Virus record (IMG/VR): IMGVR_UViG_3300024258_000793
Location: 1-31,569 of that record
Reading direction: 5' to 3' (one strand)
Length of the DNA stretch: 31,569 nt
DNA from: a virus
In this document: piece after piece, positions 3,201 to 17,935 of the stretch
Numbering within the stretch: the first letter of the stretch is position 1
Layout of the letters: each line of letters starts with the position of its first letter
The notes under the pieces: model-generated
Seen by the model: only the letters and a program-made list of their open reading frames with translations
What the model was told of the DNA's origin: nothing
The model's database searches: none
Program-made: the position numbers and the translations under genes

Positions 3201-3348
3201 GTGATATATGTTGCGATTTGGTAGTTGTGTCATCTCTAACACCAAGCATAATTGTTATAATTGTAATCTTTCTTTGAGTGTTTCATTGTCTATTGGTTGT
3301 TTTGTATGTTCCAACTGTGTATAACAATTCTATTTTTTAATTAATCTA

Positions 3349-3373
3349 GATTTAAGTTTAGAGTTGTTATAAT
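3349..3373 (+). promoter_or_regulatory. Promoter: GATTTAAG, 11 bp, TATAAT
   Basis: GATTTAAG (3349-3356) and extended -10 TGTTATAAT (TATAAT 3368-3373), followed by AGGAGAAGG and the ATG at 3392. It is intact although the gene it drives is broken. Confidence 0.65.
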
Positions 3374-3391: not shown

Positions 3392-3831
3392 ATGACATAC
3401 CAAGAATTAGTAGAAGAATCAAAATGAAGCTATTGGTATTGAAGCTGTTAAACAAAATGAAAATGGCACAAAGGTACAAATCATCATTAGTGATTTAAAT
3501 ATGTCAGAAGAAGACTGCAAGCGTGTAGACACTACTATTGTCAAGATGGAAAAGTTTTGTGATATTAAATTACAACTACTTGACCATCACAAAACAGGGT
3601 TAGAATCTAGCAAACTTTATGATTGGTATTACCTTGATGATACTATGTGTGCTACTAGAATCGTGTTTAAATATTTTGAACATATGCTAAAAGATTTGGG
3701 TTGCCTTGATGATTTCTCTAAATTGGTGAATACATATGATATGTGGTATAACACAGATGATAGATTTAATGTAGCAACTCTTTTATCCTAATGGTAGTAA
3801 AGATATTTCATCACAACTAAAAGGTTTGTAA
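3392..3831 (+). pseudogene. Mosaic remnant: DUF4116 leader joined to a DHH-type phosphoesterase fragment
   Basis: The first frame reads MTYQELVEESK and stops at 3425-3427. Another frame (from about 3420) reads QNEAIGIEAVKQNEN, a piece of a DUF4116 repeat, and runs without a stop into a DHH-family segment: VQIIISDLNMSEEDC, LLDHHKTG (the DHH motif, about 3577-3600) and a Tyr/Asp-rich part up to 3791. Frame change near 3780 adds FYPNGSKDISSQLKGL to 3831. The N-terminal DHH motif with the first metal-binding Asp residues is absent, so activity is unlikely. An ATG at 3501 opens a 96-residue frame but lacks a clear ribosome site. It looks like a deletion that fused two genes. Confidence 0.6.
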
Positions 3832-3856
3832 CCACGATAGCGATTTCGTTTTTTTT

Positions 3857-3931
3857 ATGGGTATATTTGCTACTATTTTGATTGTTTTGGTTGCCCTAGG
3901 AACTATAAAATTTAAAAACCACACAAAGTAA
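3857..3931 (+). CDS. Possible 24-residue membrane peptide
   Basis: ATG at 3857 begins MGIFATILIVLVALGTIKFK, one hydrophobic span with a basic end. There is no clear ribosome site (T-run upstream). It may be a chance frame. Confidence 0.2.
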   Translation: MGIFATILIVLVALGTIKFKNHTK

Positions 3932-3937
3932 ACACAC

Positions 3938-3971
3938 CTCACTCGTTTATAAATAGTTATAAACGAGTGAG
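3938..3971 (+). promoter_or_regulatory. 15-bp perfect hairpin containing a late promoter and hiding a ribosome site
   Basis: CTCACTCGTTTATAA (3938-3952) pairs perfectly with TTATAAACGAGTGAG (3957-3971) across a 4-nt loop. The late octamer TATAAATA (3948-3955) spans the left arm and the loop. The right arm holds GAGTGAG, the only ribosome-site candidate for the ATG at 3975. A transcript from upstream would fold and hide this site; one starting from the late promoter (about 3961-3963) would lack the left arm and leave it free. Confidence 0.65.
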
Positions 3972-3974
3972 TCC

Positions 3975-4676
3975 ATGGCTAAATTTAACTTTAATTATAC
4001 TAAGAAAAAAGAATATAAAATGTACGGTTCTATGGTAGATGAACTCATCAACCTATATGGGATAGAAGTAGAATACTTAGAAGTGTCTAAGTTCAACGAC
4101 AACGTAACATTTCAGGAATATGAGAGTAGACAGTTATCAAGCGATAGTACTACTATATCAGTTAAAATGGAAGAACAAGGGGAATACTTTGACCCTAACT
4201 CTATTATAAACTCTTTTGGTATATCTAACTTAGAAAGCACAAATATATACATTAGTTACAAAACTCTTATTGTATTACTACCTGATTTTGAATCATCTAA
4301 AGGTTTTGGTGCGATGATAGGTAATGTTATTATATTCAATTCCAATAAGATTTTAGAAATTACAGACGTTGTACCATTAACACCCGGTGTGTCTAACTTA
4401 TTTAGTTTTAATGATTCAAAAAATGTCATTAAATTAACATTAAATACTTATATAAACTCACACCAAGATTATCAAAACCCTACTTATAATGATACAACAG
4501 CACTAGACAACGTATTCACTTCATTATCTAATGATAAAATAGCACAGGACACGGTAGCAACATCTACCGTGTATACGGAATACACGGTAGATGACATTAG
4601 TGGTGATGTAACATCTACCATAGAAGATAAAAAACCAATTGTTGAAAAACACAATGTATTTGGAGACCTAGGATGA
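3975..4676 (+). CDS. Neck protein, T4 gp14-like
   Basis: The 233-residue length is close to T4 gp14 (256). Order of features fits gp14: an N-terminal stretch ending in MVDELINLYGIEVEYLEV, a middle with NSFGISNLESTNIYIS, and GNVIIFNSNKILEITDVV near residues 117-135, where gp14-type neck proteins have a conserved strand pair. gp14 closes the portal-neck ring at the head-tail joint. The C-terminal 60 residues are Thr/Asp-rich and less conserved. It starts 3 nt after the hairpin promoter and overlaps the gp15-like gene by ATGA. The family call is from motif recall, without alignment. Confidence 0.6.
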   Translation: MAKFNFNYTKKKEYKMYGSMVDELINLYGIEVEYLEVSKFNDNVTFQEYESRQLSSDSTTISVKMEEQGEYFDPNSIINSFGISNLESTNIYISYKTLIVLLPDFESSKGFGAMIGNVIIFNSNKILEITDVVPLTPGVSNLFSFNDSKNVIKLTLNTYINSHQDYQNPTYNDTTALDNVFTSLSNDKIAQDTVATSTVYTEYTVDDISGDVTSTIEDKKPIVEKHNVFGDLG

Positions 4677-5701
4677 ATTTCTACTATCATAGGACAATAG
4701 AAAAGTATACGGCTAGTATGTTAGATATGCTAAATGATATACAAGTTAGAAGAACTGATATATACAACCAAACAAGAGGGGATTATATCGTCCCTATAGA
4801 AATGTCTTATAAAGATAAAGCTTATACCTTTAGTAAGCAGGATACCGAAGATTTAATTAGTGGTAATATCAATGTTCTGCCTAGAATGAGTTTAAGTCTA
4901 GGTACTATGGTGAAAAGTGCCGATAGAAACACTAACAAATACAAAATGGTGAAAAGAGATATAGGTAATGATAAAATACAATTCCAATATAATTATGTAC
5001 CTTATGATTACTATTTTGATTTGGATATAGCAACATTAACACTTACTGATATGTCTATGATTGTAGAACAAATTGTTCCTTTGTTTAACCCTACTTACGC
5101 ACTAAAAGTGAATGAGTTAGACTACTTAGAAGAGCCTACATCAATCAATGTTGGTATAGAAACCGTATCAATAGATATACCGGAAATTGATGAAGGTTAT
5201 AATATAATCACAGGTAATATATCATTTGTACTAAAAGGACATATGTATCCACCTATAAAAGATGGTAATATAATTGAACAAATTAAGATTATAACAAGAG
5301 CAGGTGAGACATCATCTTTCGAGAACTCATCATTAATCACTGGTGATATCACCACTTCATCTAATAATATAGGTATAGAATATGTACCACATAGTAAAAG
5401 TGACAATACTCCGGTAATCTCTTCAATTTATACAGAGTCTGGTCTATTAGAAACTTATGAAAATGAAAACTTAAATTTAGAAGTTATATTTGTTGATAAA
5501 GATTCGTTTAATTTTTCTTTTGTCTGGAGTATAGTGAGCGGTAATGGTAGTGTTGGTACGGCATCTAATAAAGTTGTGTTCGCACCACCAATTAATGTAG
5601 ATAGTGATGAGACAACAACTATTCAAATTATAATCATTGACGAATTCGGTTTACAATCGGAACCATTCTTGTTTGATATATTAGTCAAAAACAAAGCATA
5701 A
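4673..5701 (+). CDS. Tail completion and sheath-stabiliser protein, T4 gp15-like, with extra Ig-like domain
   Basis: Residues 1-210 follow the gp15 pattern: MNFYYHRTIEKYTASMLDML, DIQVRRTD, VPIEMSYKDKAYTF, and YNYVPYDYYFDLDIATLTL followed by MSMIVEQIVPLFNPTY. gp15 caps the finished tail and joins it to the neck. The protein is 342 residues against 272 in T4; the excess is C-terminal (about 245-342), beginning DNTPVISSIYTESGL and reading like an Ig/cadherin-type beta-sandwich (FSFVWSIVSGNGSV). Start overlaps the gp14-like stop (ATGA). Translationally coupled neck-tail joint pair. Confidence 0.6.
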   Translation: MNFYYHRTIEKYTASMLDMLNDIQVRRTDIYNQTRGDYIVPIEMSYKDKAYTFSKQDTEDLISGNINVLPRMSLSLGTMVKSADRNTNKYKMVKRDIGNDKIQFQYNYVPYDYYFDLDIATLTLTDMSMIVEQIVPLFNPTYALKVNELDYLEEPTSINVGIETVSIDIPEIDEGYNIITGNISFVLKGHMYPPIKDGNIIEQIKIITRAGETSSFENSSLITGDITTSSNNIGIEYVPHSKSDNTPVISSIYTESGLLETYENENLNLEVIFVDKDSFNFSFVWSIVSGNGSVGTASNKVVFAPPINVDSDETTTIQIIIIDEFGLQSEPFLFDILVKNKA

Positions 5702-5749: not shown

Positions 5750-7453
5750 TTGAGGGTTCATGTCAAAAATGATGTGCTCCCTTATATGAAAGAAAACTCT
5801 AAGTACCCAAATTTCACACTTAGTGACCTTATAAATGATTTTGAGTCTGATATGATAAGAAAATTGTTTACAACTACGTGGTATATACCAAGAACCACGT
5901 ATGATTTAAAACTTAAAAAGACTTTTTCTGATATCGAAGGTGATGTGTTTAATGAAAATGTAGTTGAGCTACCGGAAACTCAACTACAAGCCCTTAATAA
6001 CATACAAACAATCATGGATGAATTGTATCAAACCGCTCTAGTAAATGGTACTCCTATTTTAGAAGGTGATAATACACAAGATTTAACTCTTAATATAAAT
6101 TATTCCAATCCACAAGTAGATGTTATAACAGACGATTATGATTTAAGTTCTCAAAGTGTAGATATCAATCTAAGTATAAAATATGGTGGTGGTGTTATTA
6201 GTGGTAACCAAATACTTTCAGGTATAATTAATTATAATATTAATAATGAATTAATGCCTATTTCTGGCATTAAACAAACAAAACTTGATATTGCTATGAA
6301 CAATCTCTATTATGAATTACAGAACTCTTTAAAAGTTGGTACAATTGACCAAGGGGAAAGTATACCAAATATATTTGGAACATTATATAGTATAGGTGAA
6401 GGTGCCAATGGTAGATTAGGTATATCTTCAACAAGTGACACGAATACATTAATAGAAATATCAATAGGTGAAACGTGGAAAAGTGTTGTTACATCAAATG
6501 TATCAACATATGCAATAAAAAATGATGGTACTCTATGGGGTTGGGGCGAAAATGGAAACAATCAACTAGGATTGGTTGGTGATACAGTAGATAAAATTAT
6601 ACCTACATTGATTAGTTCAGATACTGATTGGGAAGTACTTAGTACAAATAGTTCCGACTTAACACCTGATATATTGGCTATAAAAAATGGACAATTATAT
6701 GGAAGAGGTGATAATAAAGATGGGTCTGTTGGTGATGGTAGTGTAGATACTGATATTATAGAGTTTAAATTATTAGATTCTTCTACAATAATTGATATTT
6801 CAGTTGGTAAATATAACACATTTTTCATTAAAGATGATGGGACTCTTTGGGGAGCAGGCAATGGTGAATTTTTAGGTAACAATGATTCTAGTCTTGATAA
6901 TATAACCCCACATGTACAAGTACAGAGTGATTCTGACTGGAGGAGTATTTATTCAGGGGAAGAATTATTATCATCTTTTAGTTATGCTATTAAAACAGAT
7001 GGTACATTGTGGAATTGGGGTAAAAATTATCATGGTGCATTAGGTAGAGGGGATAATGTAAATAGAGATATACCCACTAAATACAACAATGATACTAACT
7101 GGAAAGATGTTAAAATGGGTAGACGGTATGTTATGGTATTAAAAACTGATGGTAGCATTTGGAGTTGTGGAGATGGAACTAGTGGTAAACTAGGACATGG
7201 TGACACTATTGCTTTAAACACATTAACACAAATAGGGACTGATACAGATTGGTATAGTATTCATATTGGATATGAGTCAAGTTTTGCAACTAAAATGAAT
7301 GGTGATTTGTATGGTTGGGGAGAAAATGGAAAGTATGAGTTGATGTTATCAGGTGACACTACCGATAAATTAGTACCTACATTAATTGATAATTCTGGAG
7401 ATAGATATAGAGATGTTGTTGGTGGGGTTGATTTTACTATTGTAGTTAAATAA
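5750..7453 (+). CDS. RCC1 seven-bladed propeller protein, probable tail fibre or receptor-binding protein
   Basis: Residues 1-70 (VHVKNDVLP, KYPNFTLSDLINDF, TTTWYIPRT) match the N-terminus of the next gene and probably anchor the protein to the tail. From about residue 205 there are seven RCC1 units, each with a (T)L(W/Y)xWG-type turn (at about 212, 263, 318, 365, 420, 470, 518), just enough for one closed propeller. TTG at 5750 is the first standard start. Comparison with the paralogue says about 13 residues are missing, and the upstream frame (SIVNITPDSSLDL) is open back to an ATA at 5711 with AAGGA 6 bp before it, so an ATA start or a mutated ATG is likely. It follows the gp15-like gene directly. 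Confidence 0.7.
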   Translation: MRVHVKNDVLPYMKENSKYPNFTLSDLINDFESDMIRKLFTTTWYIPRTTYDLKLKKTFSDIEGDVFNENVVELPETQLQALNNIQTIMDELYQTALVNGTPILEGDNTQDLTLNINYSNPQVDVITDDYDLSSQSVDINLSIKYGGGVISGNQILSGIINYNINNELMPISGIKQTKLDIAMNNLYYELQNSLKVGTIDQGESIPNIFGTLYSIGEGANGRLGISSTSDTNTLIEISIGETWKSVVTSNVSTYAIKNDGTLWGWGENGNNQLGLVGDTVDKIIPTLISSDTDWEVLSTNSSDLTPDILAIKNGQLYGRGDNKDGSVGDGSVDTDIIEFKLLDSSTIIDISVGKYNTFFIKDDGTLWGAGNGEFLGNNDSSLDNITPHVQVQSDSDWRSIYSGEELLSSFSYAIKTDGTLWNWGKNYHGALGRGDNVNRDIPTKYNNDTNWKDVKMGRRYVMVLKTDGSIWSCGDGTSGKLGHGDTIALNTLTQIGTDTDWYSIHIGYESSFATKMNGDLYGWGENGKYELMLSGDTTDKLVPTLIDNSGDRYRDVVGGVDFTIVVK

Positions 7454-7467: not shown

Positions 7468-7487
7468 CATAAAAAGTGGAGATACCC

Positions 7488-10400
7488 ATGTCAAGCTTAT
7501 TTGATACACCTGCAGATTCCTCTATAGGACTAAGAACATATGTGAAAAACAATGTTCTACCTATACTAAAAGCACACAAAAAATACCCAAATTTCACAAT
7601 GAACGATTTACTTACATATTTTGAGTTTAGTGATATCACTAAACTATTTGCAACAACCTGGTACATTCCTAAGACGGGTCAAAACATGAACTTAAAACAA
7701 GCATTCAATGATATTGAAAATGATAATTTTAATTCAAATATTAAAATTATCTTAGACAAAGTTAATAATTCTTATTTAGAAGATAGTATATACTCTATAT
7801 CACAAGATTTGTTCGCACAAACAAAAGTCCATGGTTCTTTGAGATTGGCTTATCCTGTTGATTCAAATATCACGTTTTTTATTGAGTATTTGACCGAACA
7901 AGAAGATGTGGGAACACAATACAATCTTAGCCAAACTATTGATATTAGCACTTATTTATCTTTTGATGGGAATACAACGCCTTCTGAAAACTATTTGACT
8001 AGTGCTACTCTTGTAGAGACTAACGGGAATTCTCCTATTACAGGAACAGACAAAGATTATATTGTAAATGCGTTTAATGCTATTTTTGGTCTAATACAAA
8101 AGAACACAACGTATTTGTTAGGTTTTGGTGATTCAGTAAAAAGTGAAAACGATAGTTTTGGTCTACCACTTGGCACTAATCAATCCAATACAATCAATAC
8201 AACTATTCACTATGATGGTGCTACAGATACTAATGTTTTTACAGAAAGTTTAACTAGTACTTCTTATTTCTCGGAAGATGCTGACAATTTTCCAACTAAG
8301 ATATTTAATGAGTTAAAACCAAACAATTTAAAACTTGTTTATTTAGATGGTAATGGTGATTATCTAAGTGATACTATACCTAATGTTACTGTTGGTGATA
8401 GTATTAATGTTGGATTAACAGAAGGATATAAAACGGTCATAGATTCGTCTCTAATCGATTATAGTGTTGGTGGAGAGGCAACATTTATTATTAAAACTGA
8501 TGGTACTTTATGGGCTGTTGGGAAAGGTTCTAGTGGTCGTTTAGGTCTTGGTAATACTAACAACGCATTGACATTAACACAAGTTGGTACTGATACAGAT
8601 TGGGCAAAAATTGATGCTCAATGGTCACATGTTTTAGCAATTAAAAGCAATGGTACTCTTTGGGGATGGGGATACAACAACCACTACCAAGTAAAATCAC
8701 CATCAAATGATGTTTTAACACCTACACAAATTGGTACTGATACAGATTGGGCAAATTGTAGTACAGGTTTTCAACACTCTATTGCTATTAAATCAAATGG
8801 TACTCTATATACATGGGGTGTTGATAACGAATCTCAATTAGGACAAGGAACTATTAATGCTAATGTTTCTACTCCTACACAAGTTGGTACTGATACAGAT
8901 TGGGAAGTAATATCAGGTGGTTATAATCATACAATGGCTATCAAAACAAATGGTGATATGTATACATGGGGTGGTGGAAGTTCTGGACAATTAGGAGATG
9001 GTGCAGGGACAAGAAGAGCTAATCCTACATTGATTGGTTCTAGTTCTTGGTCAAAAATATCAGCTGGTTCTTATACATCTGCTGGTATACTTAGTAATGG
9101 TTCTTTATTAACATGGGGTGATAGTGCAAGTTATAAAACTGGTACTGGAGATACTATTGATGTGTTAGTACCAACTATAACATTATCAGGTTCATGGTTA
9201 GATACAAAACTGCATAGTAATAGTGGGATAGCATTAAAAGATGATGGTACTGTATATGCTTGGGGTGTAAATACTAAAGGTCCTCTTGGTGATGGTACAT
9301 TTGATACTAGACCTACACCAATACAAATAAGTACTGAAGTATATTCTAAAATTGATGCAGGTAATACACATACATTAGCTATTAAAAGTGATGATTCATT
9401 ATTTGCATGGGGTGATAATACTTATGGACAATTAATGGATGATAGCACTACTGATTCATTTAATCCTGTTCAAAAAGTTTTATCTAAAGAAGAACCTAAA
9501 TTATATTTAGAAGATTCAAGAATATCTAATAAAGCTTATACAATTAATAATACAGTGACTTCTATTACAAAATATACAAAAATAAACGTTGGTTCTTCAC
9601 ATGTATTAGCTCTTAAAGAAAATGGTATCATATATACTTGGGGAAATAATAATTATGGTCAACTTGGTAATGGTGACAACATAATTAGTAATACACAATT
9701 ACAATTAGGTTCAGATAATAATTGGACTGATATTTCTGTTTTTGCTTATTCTAATATAGCCCTTAAATCTGATGGTACTATTTGGGTATGGGGTGCTAAT
9801 GATTACGGACAATTAGCAGATGGAACAGTACTCTCGAGTAATATACCATTACAAGTAGGAACTGATACTAATTGGAGCAAAATTATATCTGGTTATGACC
9901 ACTTTTTAGCAATTAAAAGTGATGGTACTCTTTGGGGTTGGGGAAGGAATCAATTTGGTGCTTTAGGGTTAGGTGATACTTCACATAGGGATACACCTAC
10001 GCAAATAGGTACTGATACTGATTGGGACATATTAGGTGCTGGTGGTAATCATTCATTAGTTATTAAAAGTAATGGTACTCTTTGGGTGACAGGATATAAT
10101 GGTCTGGGTCAATTAGGATTAGGAGATAACTCACATAGAAATATATTTACACAAATCGGTACTGATACTGATTGGATTAATGCGGTTGGTGCATCTACTA
10201 ATTCTTTTTTCATAAAAAGTACAGGTCAATTATTTAGTACAGGTATTAATGATAATGGTCAGTTAGGGTTAGGTGATAACACTAATAGAAACACAATCAC
10301 CCAAGTAGGTGTTGCTACTGATTGGGATTCTATATCATCATATAATAATACTATATTAGCTATTAGAAATAATGGTGAATTATGGGGTTGGGGAGGCAAT

Positions 10401-10763
10401 AATCTAGGTAATTTGGGAATTGATGGTGATACTATTAATAAAACTTCACCTACTCGTATTGGTACTGATGTAGATTGGCTTGATGCTTTTGGTGGAAGTA
10501 ATTTTAGTGTCGCTACTAAAGATTCTACAAATTATTATGCTTGGGGTGAAAATAGTGCAGGTCAATTAGGACAAGGTGATAATATAGATGATTATAGTAT
10601 TCACTTAGTTTCTAGTGTTCCAAATGTTTTAAATATTAATTCAATTGTTGATAATATTGGGTATATTGCAGATACAGTAAGTTCAGCTAAATTTTCTTTA
10701 GATATTAATACAAGTTACAATACTAATATAGTATTAAATACTAATAATTTTAATATTATATGA
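7488..10763 (+). CDS. RCC1 double-propeller protein (14 blades), probable tail fibre
   Basis: The ATG at 7488 with GTGGAGA before it is preferred over the GTG at 7476. Residues 1-75 repeat the anchor domain of the preceding protein (YVKNNVLPIL, KYPNFTMNDLL, ATTWYIPKT). Residues about 75-320 form a second non-repeat part. Then come 14 RCC1 units: seven from about 336 to 636, a linker of about 60 residues (VQKVLSKEEPKLYLED), and seven from about 712 to 1015, followed by an Asn/Ile-rich tail. Many blades share TQIGTDTDW. Two complete seven-bladed propellers are the simplest reading. RCC1 propellers bind proteins in eukaryotes; here receptor binding is inferred from genomic position and size. Confidence 0.75.
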   Translation: MSSLFDTPADSSIGLRTYVKNNVLPILKAHKKYPNFTMNDLLTYFEFSDITKLFATTWYIPKTGQNMNLKQAFNDIENDNFNSNIKIILDKVNNSYLEDSIYSISQDLFAQTKVHGSLRLAYPVDSNITFFIEYLTEQEDVGTQYNLSQTIDISTYLSFDGNTTPSENYLTSATLVETNGNSPITGTDKDYIVNAFNAIFGLIQKNTTYLLGFGDSVKSENDSFGLPLGTNQSNTINTTIHYDGATDTNVFTESLTSTSYFSEDADNFPTKIFNELKPNNLKLVYLDGNGDYLSDTIPNVTVGDSINVGLTEGYKTVIDSSLIDYSVGGEATFIIKTDGTLWAVGKGSSGRLGLGNTNNALTLTQVGTDTDWAKIDAQWSHVLAIKSNGTLWGWGYNNHYQVKSPSNDVLTPTQIGTDTDWANCSTGFQHSIAIKSNGTLYTWGVDNESQLGQGTINANVSTPTQVGTDTDWEVISGGYNHTMAIKTNGDMYTWGGGSSGQLGDGAGTRRANPTLIGSSSWSKISAGSYTSAGILSNGSLLTWGDSASYKTGTGDTIDVLVPTITLSGSWLDTKLHSNSGIALKDDGTVYAWGVNTKGPLGDGTFDTRPTPIQISTEVYSKIDAGNTHTLAIKSDDSLFAWGDNTYGQLMDDSTTDSFNPVQKVLSKEEPKLYLEDSRISNKAYTINNTVTSITKYTKINVGSSHVLALKENGIIYTWGNNNYGQLGNGDNIISNTQLQLGSDNNWTDISVFAYSNIALKSDGTIWVWGANDYGQLADGTVLSSNIPLQVGTDTNWSKIISGYDHFLAIKSDGTLWGWGRNQFGALGLGDTSHRDTPTQIGTDTDWDILGAGGNHSLVIKSNGTLWVTGYNGLGQLGLGDNSHRNIFTQIGTDTDWINAVGASTNSFFIKSTGQLFSTGINDNGQLGLGDNTNRNTITQVGVATDWDSISSYNNTILAIRNNGELWGWGGNNLGNLGIDGDTINKTSPTRIGTDVDWLDAFGGSNFSVATKDSTNYYAWGENSAGQLGQGDNIDDYSIHLVSSVPNVLNINSIVDNIGYIADTVSSAKFSLDINTSYNTNIVLNTNNFNII

Positions 10764-11897: not shown

Positions 11898-13781
11898 CTA
11901 TTGGTATTTCTTAGTAAAAACCATGTTTCCACAATCCCAAATTCTTCTATATCCATTACCGAACATATTTTGTACTTCTGTATCATTGGGATTAAAATCT
12001 TCTAATACTTTAGATAACTTGTGTTTTTGATATTTATTTCTACTCTCTAATAACATGGTGTTCTCTTTAAAATAAAAGTAGTTTGGTGTTGAGTTATGTG
12101 TGTGTTCAAAACCAATAGTCTTATAAAGACCACCTTCACTCCATCTACGGTTTGCATAGCTTACTAATGACGTAGGTTGGTTTTCTCTTTCAAAGTGCTT
12201 TAATAGCTTACTAGCACCTCCTACAACCGTTGTATTAATCTTGTTACAAAATCTTATAAGTTCCCATTCATAATTCTTAGAAAATCTAGTCTTACCGAAG
12301 GTCATAAGAGATACTAACTCATCATCATTATAATAGAGACCGTAATCTTTACTAGAATTACAAGAACCCTGTAAATGATTATTATCAAGGAACTTTTTCT
12401 TTGTTTTGTTATCTACTTCTTTAATAGTTGTTTTTCTACCATAGATTCTAGTTGTCTTATTCATTTTAGAATTAAGTACACTTTTCCATATATCTTTTTT
12501 TGTAATCCATTCGTTATCAAATATATGGAATAACTGATAACCTTTTTCTTCTACTAGATTTGTTTTAACCAAGTGTCTATTCTTATTCTCTTTATCATGA
12601 TTGTTGAGCATCGTATGTTTTGATTTGCCATAACTATGCCATATAAGACCATTGTACTCTATACCAAATTTGTAACTATGTGACAATATATCAATTTGTA
12701 AAGGTGCTATCATTTTATAATTACCTTGTTCTTTGTCCACATCCACTACAAAATCATAAACATTATTTTCTTGATTTGTTTTGCTCTTCTTATATTTTAC
12801 ATTATTGTTTCTACAGAATGTGTATATCATAGTGATACCACAATTGTAATATATCATGGCGTCTTCTATCTGTAATTTATTATCTATAACAAAAACTTCT
12901 TCAAAATAAATCTTATTAAAATCGTCTCTATTTGTTATATGCATTTCATTTTTGTTATATATCCCATTTTTACGTTTTCGCTCTCTAGTATTTTTTATTT
13001 TCTCTTGGATAATAGGAGACTTAGTTGGATTGGATACACCATAATGATTCAAAAAAGTAGATTTTGTTTTGTCAATTATATCTTTTTTTTCTATAGATGA
13101 CTTATTGTTATATACATCACTTAGATGATGTTTTCTTTCATCCGATATAGGAACACCTACAAATAAATGTGAGTTGTCATAAGTTTTAGAGCCATATCTT
13201 AACGATATGGTATTTTCTATTTTGGTCTTTATTTCTTTGTTATTAAACGTATATTCACAACCATATTTTTCTAGGTTTGTATTTTTCTGTTTTGTCTTTG
13301 TTTTTTCGGAGTTTGATAGACATTTAGTTGAGCAGAACTCACGATAACCTTTTGAAAAGTTAATAAACGATGTTGGTTCACCACAATGACATTTGGTTGG
13401 TTCACCATGATAACACTTATACATTTCTTCCAATGTATAAGGTGTATACTTAGTTCTATTTGGGTTAATTTTACCATCTTTCATCAAAAATAGAAAAATG
13501 TTTGTTTTTGTAAGAGGTATATTTTTATAAGTTGATTTGGACTCGCACGTTATAGAACAATAAAAATTATGAGTCTTTGCGAATGATACTGTATTATCAC
13601 ATTCTTGGCATTTAGGTTCTTTGTATAATCCATTTTGTATTAATCGTATAGACGTTGGGAAATTGCAACCCATTACATCAACTATAATCTTTTTTATGTT
13701 GTTAGGGACTATTCTAGTCTTAACTACTTTATATTTGTTGAGGTAAGGGGTTATTGTTTTTTGTAGTTGTATTATATTCAT
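11898..13781 (-). CDS. Free-standing homing endonuclease, Vsr-like (EDxHD) type
   Basis: The N-terminal third has two zinc-finger-like Cys clusters (CQEC...FYCSITC and CHCG...FCSTKC) and NLEKYGCEYTF-type units seen in DNA-binding parts of homing enzymes. The middle carries a Vsr-like nuclease core: QIDILSHSYKFGIEYNGLIW, then NNHDKENKNRH and GYQLFHIFDNEW, with Glu, His and Asp positions as in EDxHD enzymes. The C-terminal part (LDNNHLQG, LIRFCNK, VGGASKLLKHFE, SYANRRWSEGGLY) matches the domain common to T4 Hef-type endonucleases. The ATG at 13781 is used; the TTG at 13796 lies in the sheath terminator. No good ribosome site is seen. It sits between virion genes, as such selfish genes do. Confidence 0.75.
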   Translation of the reverse strand: MNIIQLQKTITPYLNKYKVVKTRIVPNNIKKIIVDVMGCNFPTSIRLIQNGLYKEPKCQECDNTVSFAKTHNFYCSITCESKSTYKNIPLTKTNIFLFLMKDGKINPNRTKYTPYTLEEMYKCYHGEPTKCHCGEPTSFINFSKGYREFCSTKCLSNSEKTKTKQKNTNLEKYGCEYTFNNKEIKTKIENTISLRYGSKTYDNSHLFVGVPISDERKHHLSDVYNNKSSIEKKDIIDKTKSTFLNHYGVSNPTKSPIIQEKIKNTRERKRKNGIYNKNEMHITNRDDFNKIYFEEVFVIDNKLQIEDAMIYYNCGITMIYTFCRNNNVKYKKSKTNQENNVYDFVVDVDKEQGNYKMIAPLQIDILSHSYKFGIEYNGLIWHSYGKSKHTMLNNHDKENKNRHLVKTNLVEEKGYQLFHIFDNEWITKKDIWKSVLNSKMNKTTRIYGRKTTIKEVDNKTKKKFLDNNHLQGSCNSSKDYGLYYNDDELVSLMTFGKTRFSKNYEWELIRFCNKINTTVVGGASKLLKHFERENQPTSLVSYANRRWSEGGLYKTIGFEHTHNSTPNYFYFKENTMLLESRNKYQKHKLSKVLEDFNPNDTEVQNMFGNGYRRIWDCGNMVFTKKYQ

Positions 13782-13793
13782 AATATAATTATA

Positions 13794-13818
13794 CAAAAAG
13801 GGTTCTTAAAGAACCCTT
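13794..13818 (-). terminator. Rho-independent terminator of the sheath operon
   Basis: On the minus strand AAGGGTTCTT and AAGAACCCTT (13798-13818) form a strong stem followed directly by a T-run (13795-13799). It lies 13 nt after the sheath stop codon. Confidence 0.75.
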
Positions 13819-17907: not shown

Positions 17908-17935
17908 TATAAATAATTACATAAAAGTATTTATA
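17908..17935. promoter_or_regulatory. Two face-to-face late promoters in an inverted repeat
   Basis: TATAAATA on the plus strand (17908-17915) and on the minus strand (17928-17935) face each other across 12 bp. Both predicted start sites fall in that 12-bp gap, serving the hub operon (17953 onward) and the tube-sheath operon (17897 and down). Confidence 0.65.

Follow-up and report, generated by a model that had tools for sequence, protein, structure and literature searches.

In bacteriophage T4, several late genes are controlled by an RNA hairpin that hides the ribosome binding site (RBS). The T4 genes e, I-TevII, and 26 have been described as repressed by such structures (PMC3014915; PMC2988022). 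The translational lock on the lysozyme gene e was described by McPheeters et al. in 1986, as reviewed in PMC3014915. In gene e, late promoter sequence TATAAATA lies toward the 5' side of a hairpin by which the ribosome site is sequestered; the long upstream RNA is silent and the late RNA is open. The locus described here is predicted to share this layout. A late promoter and an RBS-hiding hairpin are combined in the same way in the T4-type homing endonuclease genes I-TevI, I-TevII, I-TevIII, segB, and Aeh1 mobE, and a sequestered RBS is also found in the structural-protein genes soc and 26 (PMC2988022). The T4 genes with these structures are late genes that lie within long early and middle gene transcripts (PMC2988022). 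In the searchable open papers, no earlier report of such a lock on a virion neck gene was found.

The window, i.e., the whole stretch of DNA that was analyzed, comprises the 31,569 bases of a virus record from an uncultured T4-like myovirus. Its nearest named relatives are Campylobacter Fletchervirus phages (43% identity in gp15) and Vibrio phages of the phiKT1024 group (33% identity in gp14). A tRNA search found no tRNA, and Rfam gave no match at the gathering score anywhere in the window. Analysis of the region upstream of the gp14-like gene suggested, with good though not full confidence, that a cis-acting time lock of the T4 gene e type operates on this neck gene. The following features are relevant to this proposal.

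3346 to 3371, plus strand: repeat motif CTAGATTTAAGTTTANAGTTGTTATA, an early/middle-type promoter motif with extended -10, the presumed source of read-through.
3834 to 3857, plus strand: weak terminator-like element ACGA-N8-TCGT-T8 between the upstream open reading frame (ORF) and the hairpin, with a 4-bp stem in the fold.
3938 to 3952, plus strand: left arm of the hairpin (15 nt), carried only by RNA started upstream.
3948 to 3955, plus strand: T4-type late promoter TATAAATA, which extends from the left arm into the loop, assigned from the motif and the placement of its 10 copies before starts.
3957 to 3971, plus strand: right arm of the hairpin, holding the Shine-Dalgarno-like GAGTGAG (3965 to 3971).
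3961, plus strand: putative late transcript start, placed by T4 spacing 6 nt after TATAAATA, leaving a 14-nt open leader.
3975 to 4676, plus strand: gene for a gp14-like neck protein (head closure Hc2), with which the late operon begins (phrog_679, E 1.7e-14; alignment).
4673 to 5701, plus strand: gene for a gp15-like tail sheath stabilizer (PF16724, E 1.2e-40).

Alignment of the gp14-like protein with its homologues revealed the same start point, corresponding to position 3975. The gp15-like gene overlaps the 3' end of the gp14-like gene and is likely cotranscribed with it. Downstream of gp15, the neighboring proteins encoded at 5750 to 7453 and 7476 to 10763 have an N-terminal region in common; the former contains strong RCC1-like propeller repeats and the latter repeats of similar look, and both are possibly fiber or receptor-binding proteins.

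The first-pass annotation had described a perfect 15-bp stem with TATAAATA in its left arm and loop. Both claims were confirmed. The arms at 3938 to 3952 and 3957 to 3971 are 100% complementary (15/15 positions) and enclose a 4-nt loop, and TATAAATA at 3948 to 3955 has five bases within the left arm and three within the loop. The predicted fold energy of the hairpin is -19 kcal/mol (z -8.3), a value equaled by none of 200 shuffles. Perfect stems of at least 14 bp (loop of 3 to 12 nt) occur twice in the window, at 3938 to 3971 and 4561 to 4593, and are absent from all 60 dinucleotide-shuffled versions of the full window. The second of these hairpins (CATCTACCGTGTAT/ATACACGGTAGATG, 14 bp, 5-nt loop) is located within the 3' part of the gp14 gene; it is likewise beyond chance, and a partial third copy of its arm is found at about 4609.

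The right arm had also been reported to contain the ribosome site of the gp14-like gene 3 nt before its ATG. The spacing holds, with TCC as the sole spacer between the end of the stem and the ATG at 3975, but the site is weak: GAGTGAG pairs with the anti-Shine-Dalgarno sequence at about -3.9 kcal/mol, the poorest value among the eight late genes scored (the others ranged from -5.3 to -12.3). In the predicted fold, the start-codon region is occluded together with this site. Stable leader hairpins can protect mRNA. By virtue of this general ability, the structure might, as a 5'-end or processing hairpin, serve to protect or mature an mRNA started upstream instead of silencing it. This is very improbable, since it is the start region itself that the stem covers, and the putative late RNA would lack the stem.

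The exact sequence TATAAATA is positioned 20 nt before the gp14-like ATG and occurs 10 times in the window. Nine of the 10 copies are closely followed by a start codon on the correct strand; in eight cases this start has a Shine-Dalgarno sequence. In the ninth case (2062), the ATG belongs to a short ORF with an apparent frameshift, and the tenth copy (30970) has no assignable gene downstream. In related phages, TATAAATA is also found before gp15 and gp14. The number of TATAAATA-like sites (at most one mismatch) in the window was not above chance; it is the placement before starts, not the copy number, that makes late promoters of the T4 type most likely in this phage, which agrees with the earlier assignment of TATAAATA as a late promoter motif.

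On the other strand of the hairpin, TATAACTA at 3961 to 3954 differs from the motif by one mismatch. Two overlapping, opposed late promoters could therefore force a palindrome whose hairpin has no role, and palindromes of this kind do arise from divergent promoter pairs, both at 17908/17935 in the window and at genes 4/53 in T4. This origin was judged highly unlikely because there is no minus-strand late gene to the left that such a promoter could serve; moreover, the outer 10 bp of the stem (CTCACTCGTT/AACGAGTGAG) are not promoter sequence. At 17908 to 17935, the opposed late promoters have the form TATAAATA-N12-TATTTATA before divergent tail genes, which places a palindrome near the leader of each transcript; the same layout is found at T4 4/53 and F360 gp15.

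The folding of read-through and late transcripts was compared by calculating the opening cost, defined as the energy needed to unfold positions -15 to +6 around the start codon, and the gap, defined as the cost in read-through RNA minus that in late RNA. The calculation agreed with the annotated time lock: RNA beginning at or upstream of 3938 was predicted to be locked, with a computed cost of 18.1 to 20.0 kcal/mol, and RNA beginning at 3960 to 3964 was predicted to be open, with a cost of 2.5 to 2.6 kcal/mol. Since the latter cost hardly changed across these starts, the exact position of the late start is immaterial. The gap of 16.2 kcal/mol is the largest among the TATAAATA promoters in about 1.1 Mb of T4-like sequence plus two further complete phage genomes. 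When only the upstream 60 nt were shuffled, the gap was 4.3 +/- 1.9, and none of 1,000 shuffles reached 16.2. For the remaining seven late promoters scored in the window, which are preceded by late, homing-endonuclease, or divergent genes, gaps of 0.1 to 7.4 were obtained.

This comparison provides a simple energy test by which known locks rank highest and additional candidates were found. The positive controls e (gaps of 13.9 and 11.2 by the same measure, versus 16.2 in the window), I-TevII (11.1), and 26 (9.2) took the top ranks among the T4 promoters. The measure is incomplete because T4 soc, which is repressed by structure according to the literature, has a gap of only 1.8 when exact TATAAATA is required.

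A near-perfect inverted repeat with a promoter at its center could also function at the DNA level, as the operator of a dimeric repressor or activator (e.g., an endonuclease-type autorepressor) over the late promoter, with the RNA fold as a by-product. I-TevI binds an operator that overlaps the late promoter of its own gene (PMC2988022), and an HNH homing endonuclease is encoded in the window at 11898 to 13796. However, no second copy of the site was found among the inverted repeats of the window. The right arm reaches to 3 nt before the ATG, which a lock needs and an operator does not, and the energy gap agrees with those of known RNA locks. An operator is thus an unlikely explanation, if the least improbable of the alternatives considered.

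The time lock presupposes RNA that enters the neck operon from upstream. The 26-base motif CTAGATTTAAGTTTANAGTTGTTATA is present in exact form at 826 to 851 and 3346 to 3371 and with three mismatches at 1720 to 1745. All three copies are on the plus strand, each just before a gene, and 100 shuffles gave none; the family was seen only before these three upstream plus-strand genes. The copies share the leader AGGAGAAGGA and an extended -10, and the motif probably represents an early or middle promoter class. By inference, the upstream gene cluster is early or middle, and the hairpin seems to mark where a non-late gene cluster gives way to a late operon on the same strand. Same-strand genes with a common non-late promoter motif are located upstream, and only a weak terminator-like element was seen between the 3346 copy and the hairpin; read-through transcripts of the kind known from T4 would fit this arrangement. 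The copy at 3346 is separated from the hairpin downstream by about 570 nt and precedes a frameshifted, fragment-like plus-strand ORF (3392 to 3830) with weak similarity to DHH phosphoesterases. The plus-strand ORFs at 2087 to 2300 and 3392 to 3830 both show apparent frameshifts near homopolymers, which may reflect either decay or sequencing errors. The gene at 882 to 1718, under the non-late promoter motif CTAGATTTAAGTTTANAGTTGTTATA, encodes a protein of about 11 DUF4116 repeats with near-identical DNA repeats. A small ORF at 3857 to 3931 (24 amino acids, hydrophobic) was considered as a coupled leader peptide and rejected; it has no Shine-Dalgarno sequence and no family match.

The terminator-like element at 3834 to 3857 scored below the threshold of the terminator scan. 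It is probably leaky and may reduce read-through into the hairpin. The hairpin itself might be a transcription terminator or insulator that ends upstream transcripts and accommodates the late promoter in its loop; similar-looking hairpins followed by a T run are found before gp13 in contigs L130 and L175. Here, in contrast, the plus strand after the stem reads TCCATGGC, without the T run of an intrinsic terminator, and the scan gave no plus-strand terminator at the hairpin and only a weak minus-strand match. Termination at this site is therefore considered quite improbable.

The proposed time lock would work as follows. RNA from the promoter at 3346 to 3371 or from further upstream would leak into the neck operon with both arms, fold into the 15-bp stem, and bury the Shine-Dalgarno-like site and the gp14 start region. 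Late in infection, the polymerase with a gp55-type sigma-like factor, which the phage presumably has although its gene is not in the window, would initiate at TATAAATA within the hairpin, near 3961. The resulting RNA would lack the entire left arm, carry a short open leader, and be translated. The locus thus combines a late promoter near the ribosome site with upstream RNA that is predicted to sequester the start and late RNA that is predicted to lack the 5' strand of the stem. Motif placement, energies, a putative upstream same-strand promoter of another class, and the T4-like layout, which matches the locks in PMC3014915 and PMC2988022, support the earlier proposal of a time lock on the neck-tail operon. 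The analysis establishes the sequence, the predicted structure and energies, the motif placement, and the recurrence elsewhere; the transcript ends, their timing, the presence of the gp55-type factor, and the effect on translation are inferred.

The locus differs from the described systems in several respects. The target is a neck gene, whereas that of the T4 e lock is a lysis gene; the window hairpin contains one promoter, that of gene e two. The stem of the window is a perfect 15 bp, and its Shine-Dalgarno sequence is much weaker than that of gene e. The gene e lock is experimentally proven, whereas the window lock is predicted from sequence and computed fold. The homing endonuclease locks belong to mobile-element genes, whereas no endonuclease gene adjoins the window hairpin. 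The promoter of T4 gene 26 is divergent from that of gene 51, unlike the window promoter. The mechanism itself is not new; what seems to be new is its target gene and its possible recurrence at neck genes. With this lock, a classic mode of T4 control that operates on e, soc, 26, 49, and homing endonuclease genes would also apply to a neck gene in a distant T4-like phage that is uncultured.

Loss of pairing in relatives, which the first-pass annotation had named as a refuting observation, was seen only in part. The hairpin is absent in the distant Vibrio and Campylobacter relatives (30 to 33% protein identity). In these phages the gene upstream of the neck gene is reversed, and because it points away there is no obvious read-through to silence. 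A search for close relatives suitable for covariation analysis (gp14, gp15, sheath, stem, and early-promoter motif in viral contigs; gp15 in genome contigs) gave nothing informative; contig L091, found via the sheath gene, is identical to the window and ends short of the hairpin locus.

Similar predicted locks at neck genes were also found elsewhere in environmental T4-like phages, with arm sequences unrelated to those of the window. In a second T4-like lineage, stems of 15 bp (L085) and 14 bp (L056) are located before gp14, with an endonuclease-like ORF upstream. In L087/L076 of this lineage, the arms before gp14 are quite different, and upstream sequence is paired with the start codon itself. 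Locks before gp13 were found in L149, L175, L130, L162, L131, and L137/L139. Promoters were counted as locked when the gap was at least 6 and at most 2% of upstream shuffles were as high, in a test with a pre-filter and mononucleotide shuffles. By this count, 12 of 46 neck-gene promoters were locked versus 12 of 156 others (Fisher p 0.003, relatedness ignored), where the neck count includes the window that prompted the analysis, neck regions are overrepresented among the fetched loci, and some hairpins at gp13 (L130, L175) carry T runs and may also be terminators. The neck-gene excess is a lead, not a result. It is a tentative and rather doubtful idea that neck genes 13/14 are a preferred, repeatedly re-evolved lock site, in which the arms are replaced, the pairing around TATAAATA and the start is kept, and early connector production is selected against. 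If neck genes are repeatedly locked, early connector production is probably harmful.

In L130 (460 to 540) and L175 (1690 to 1765), a hairpin with TATAAATA followed by a T run is positioned before gp13, and this single element may be terminator, late promoter, and ribosome-site lock at once. Lock-like hairpins were also observed before a putative chitinase gene (L184, 40388 to 40420; gap 10.0) and, in Vibrio phage phiKT1024 (L001, 4960 to 4990; gap 13.0), before a GIY-YIG endonuclease-like ORF.
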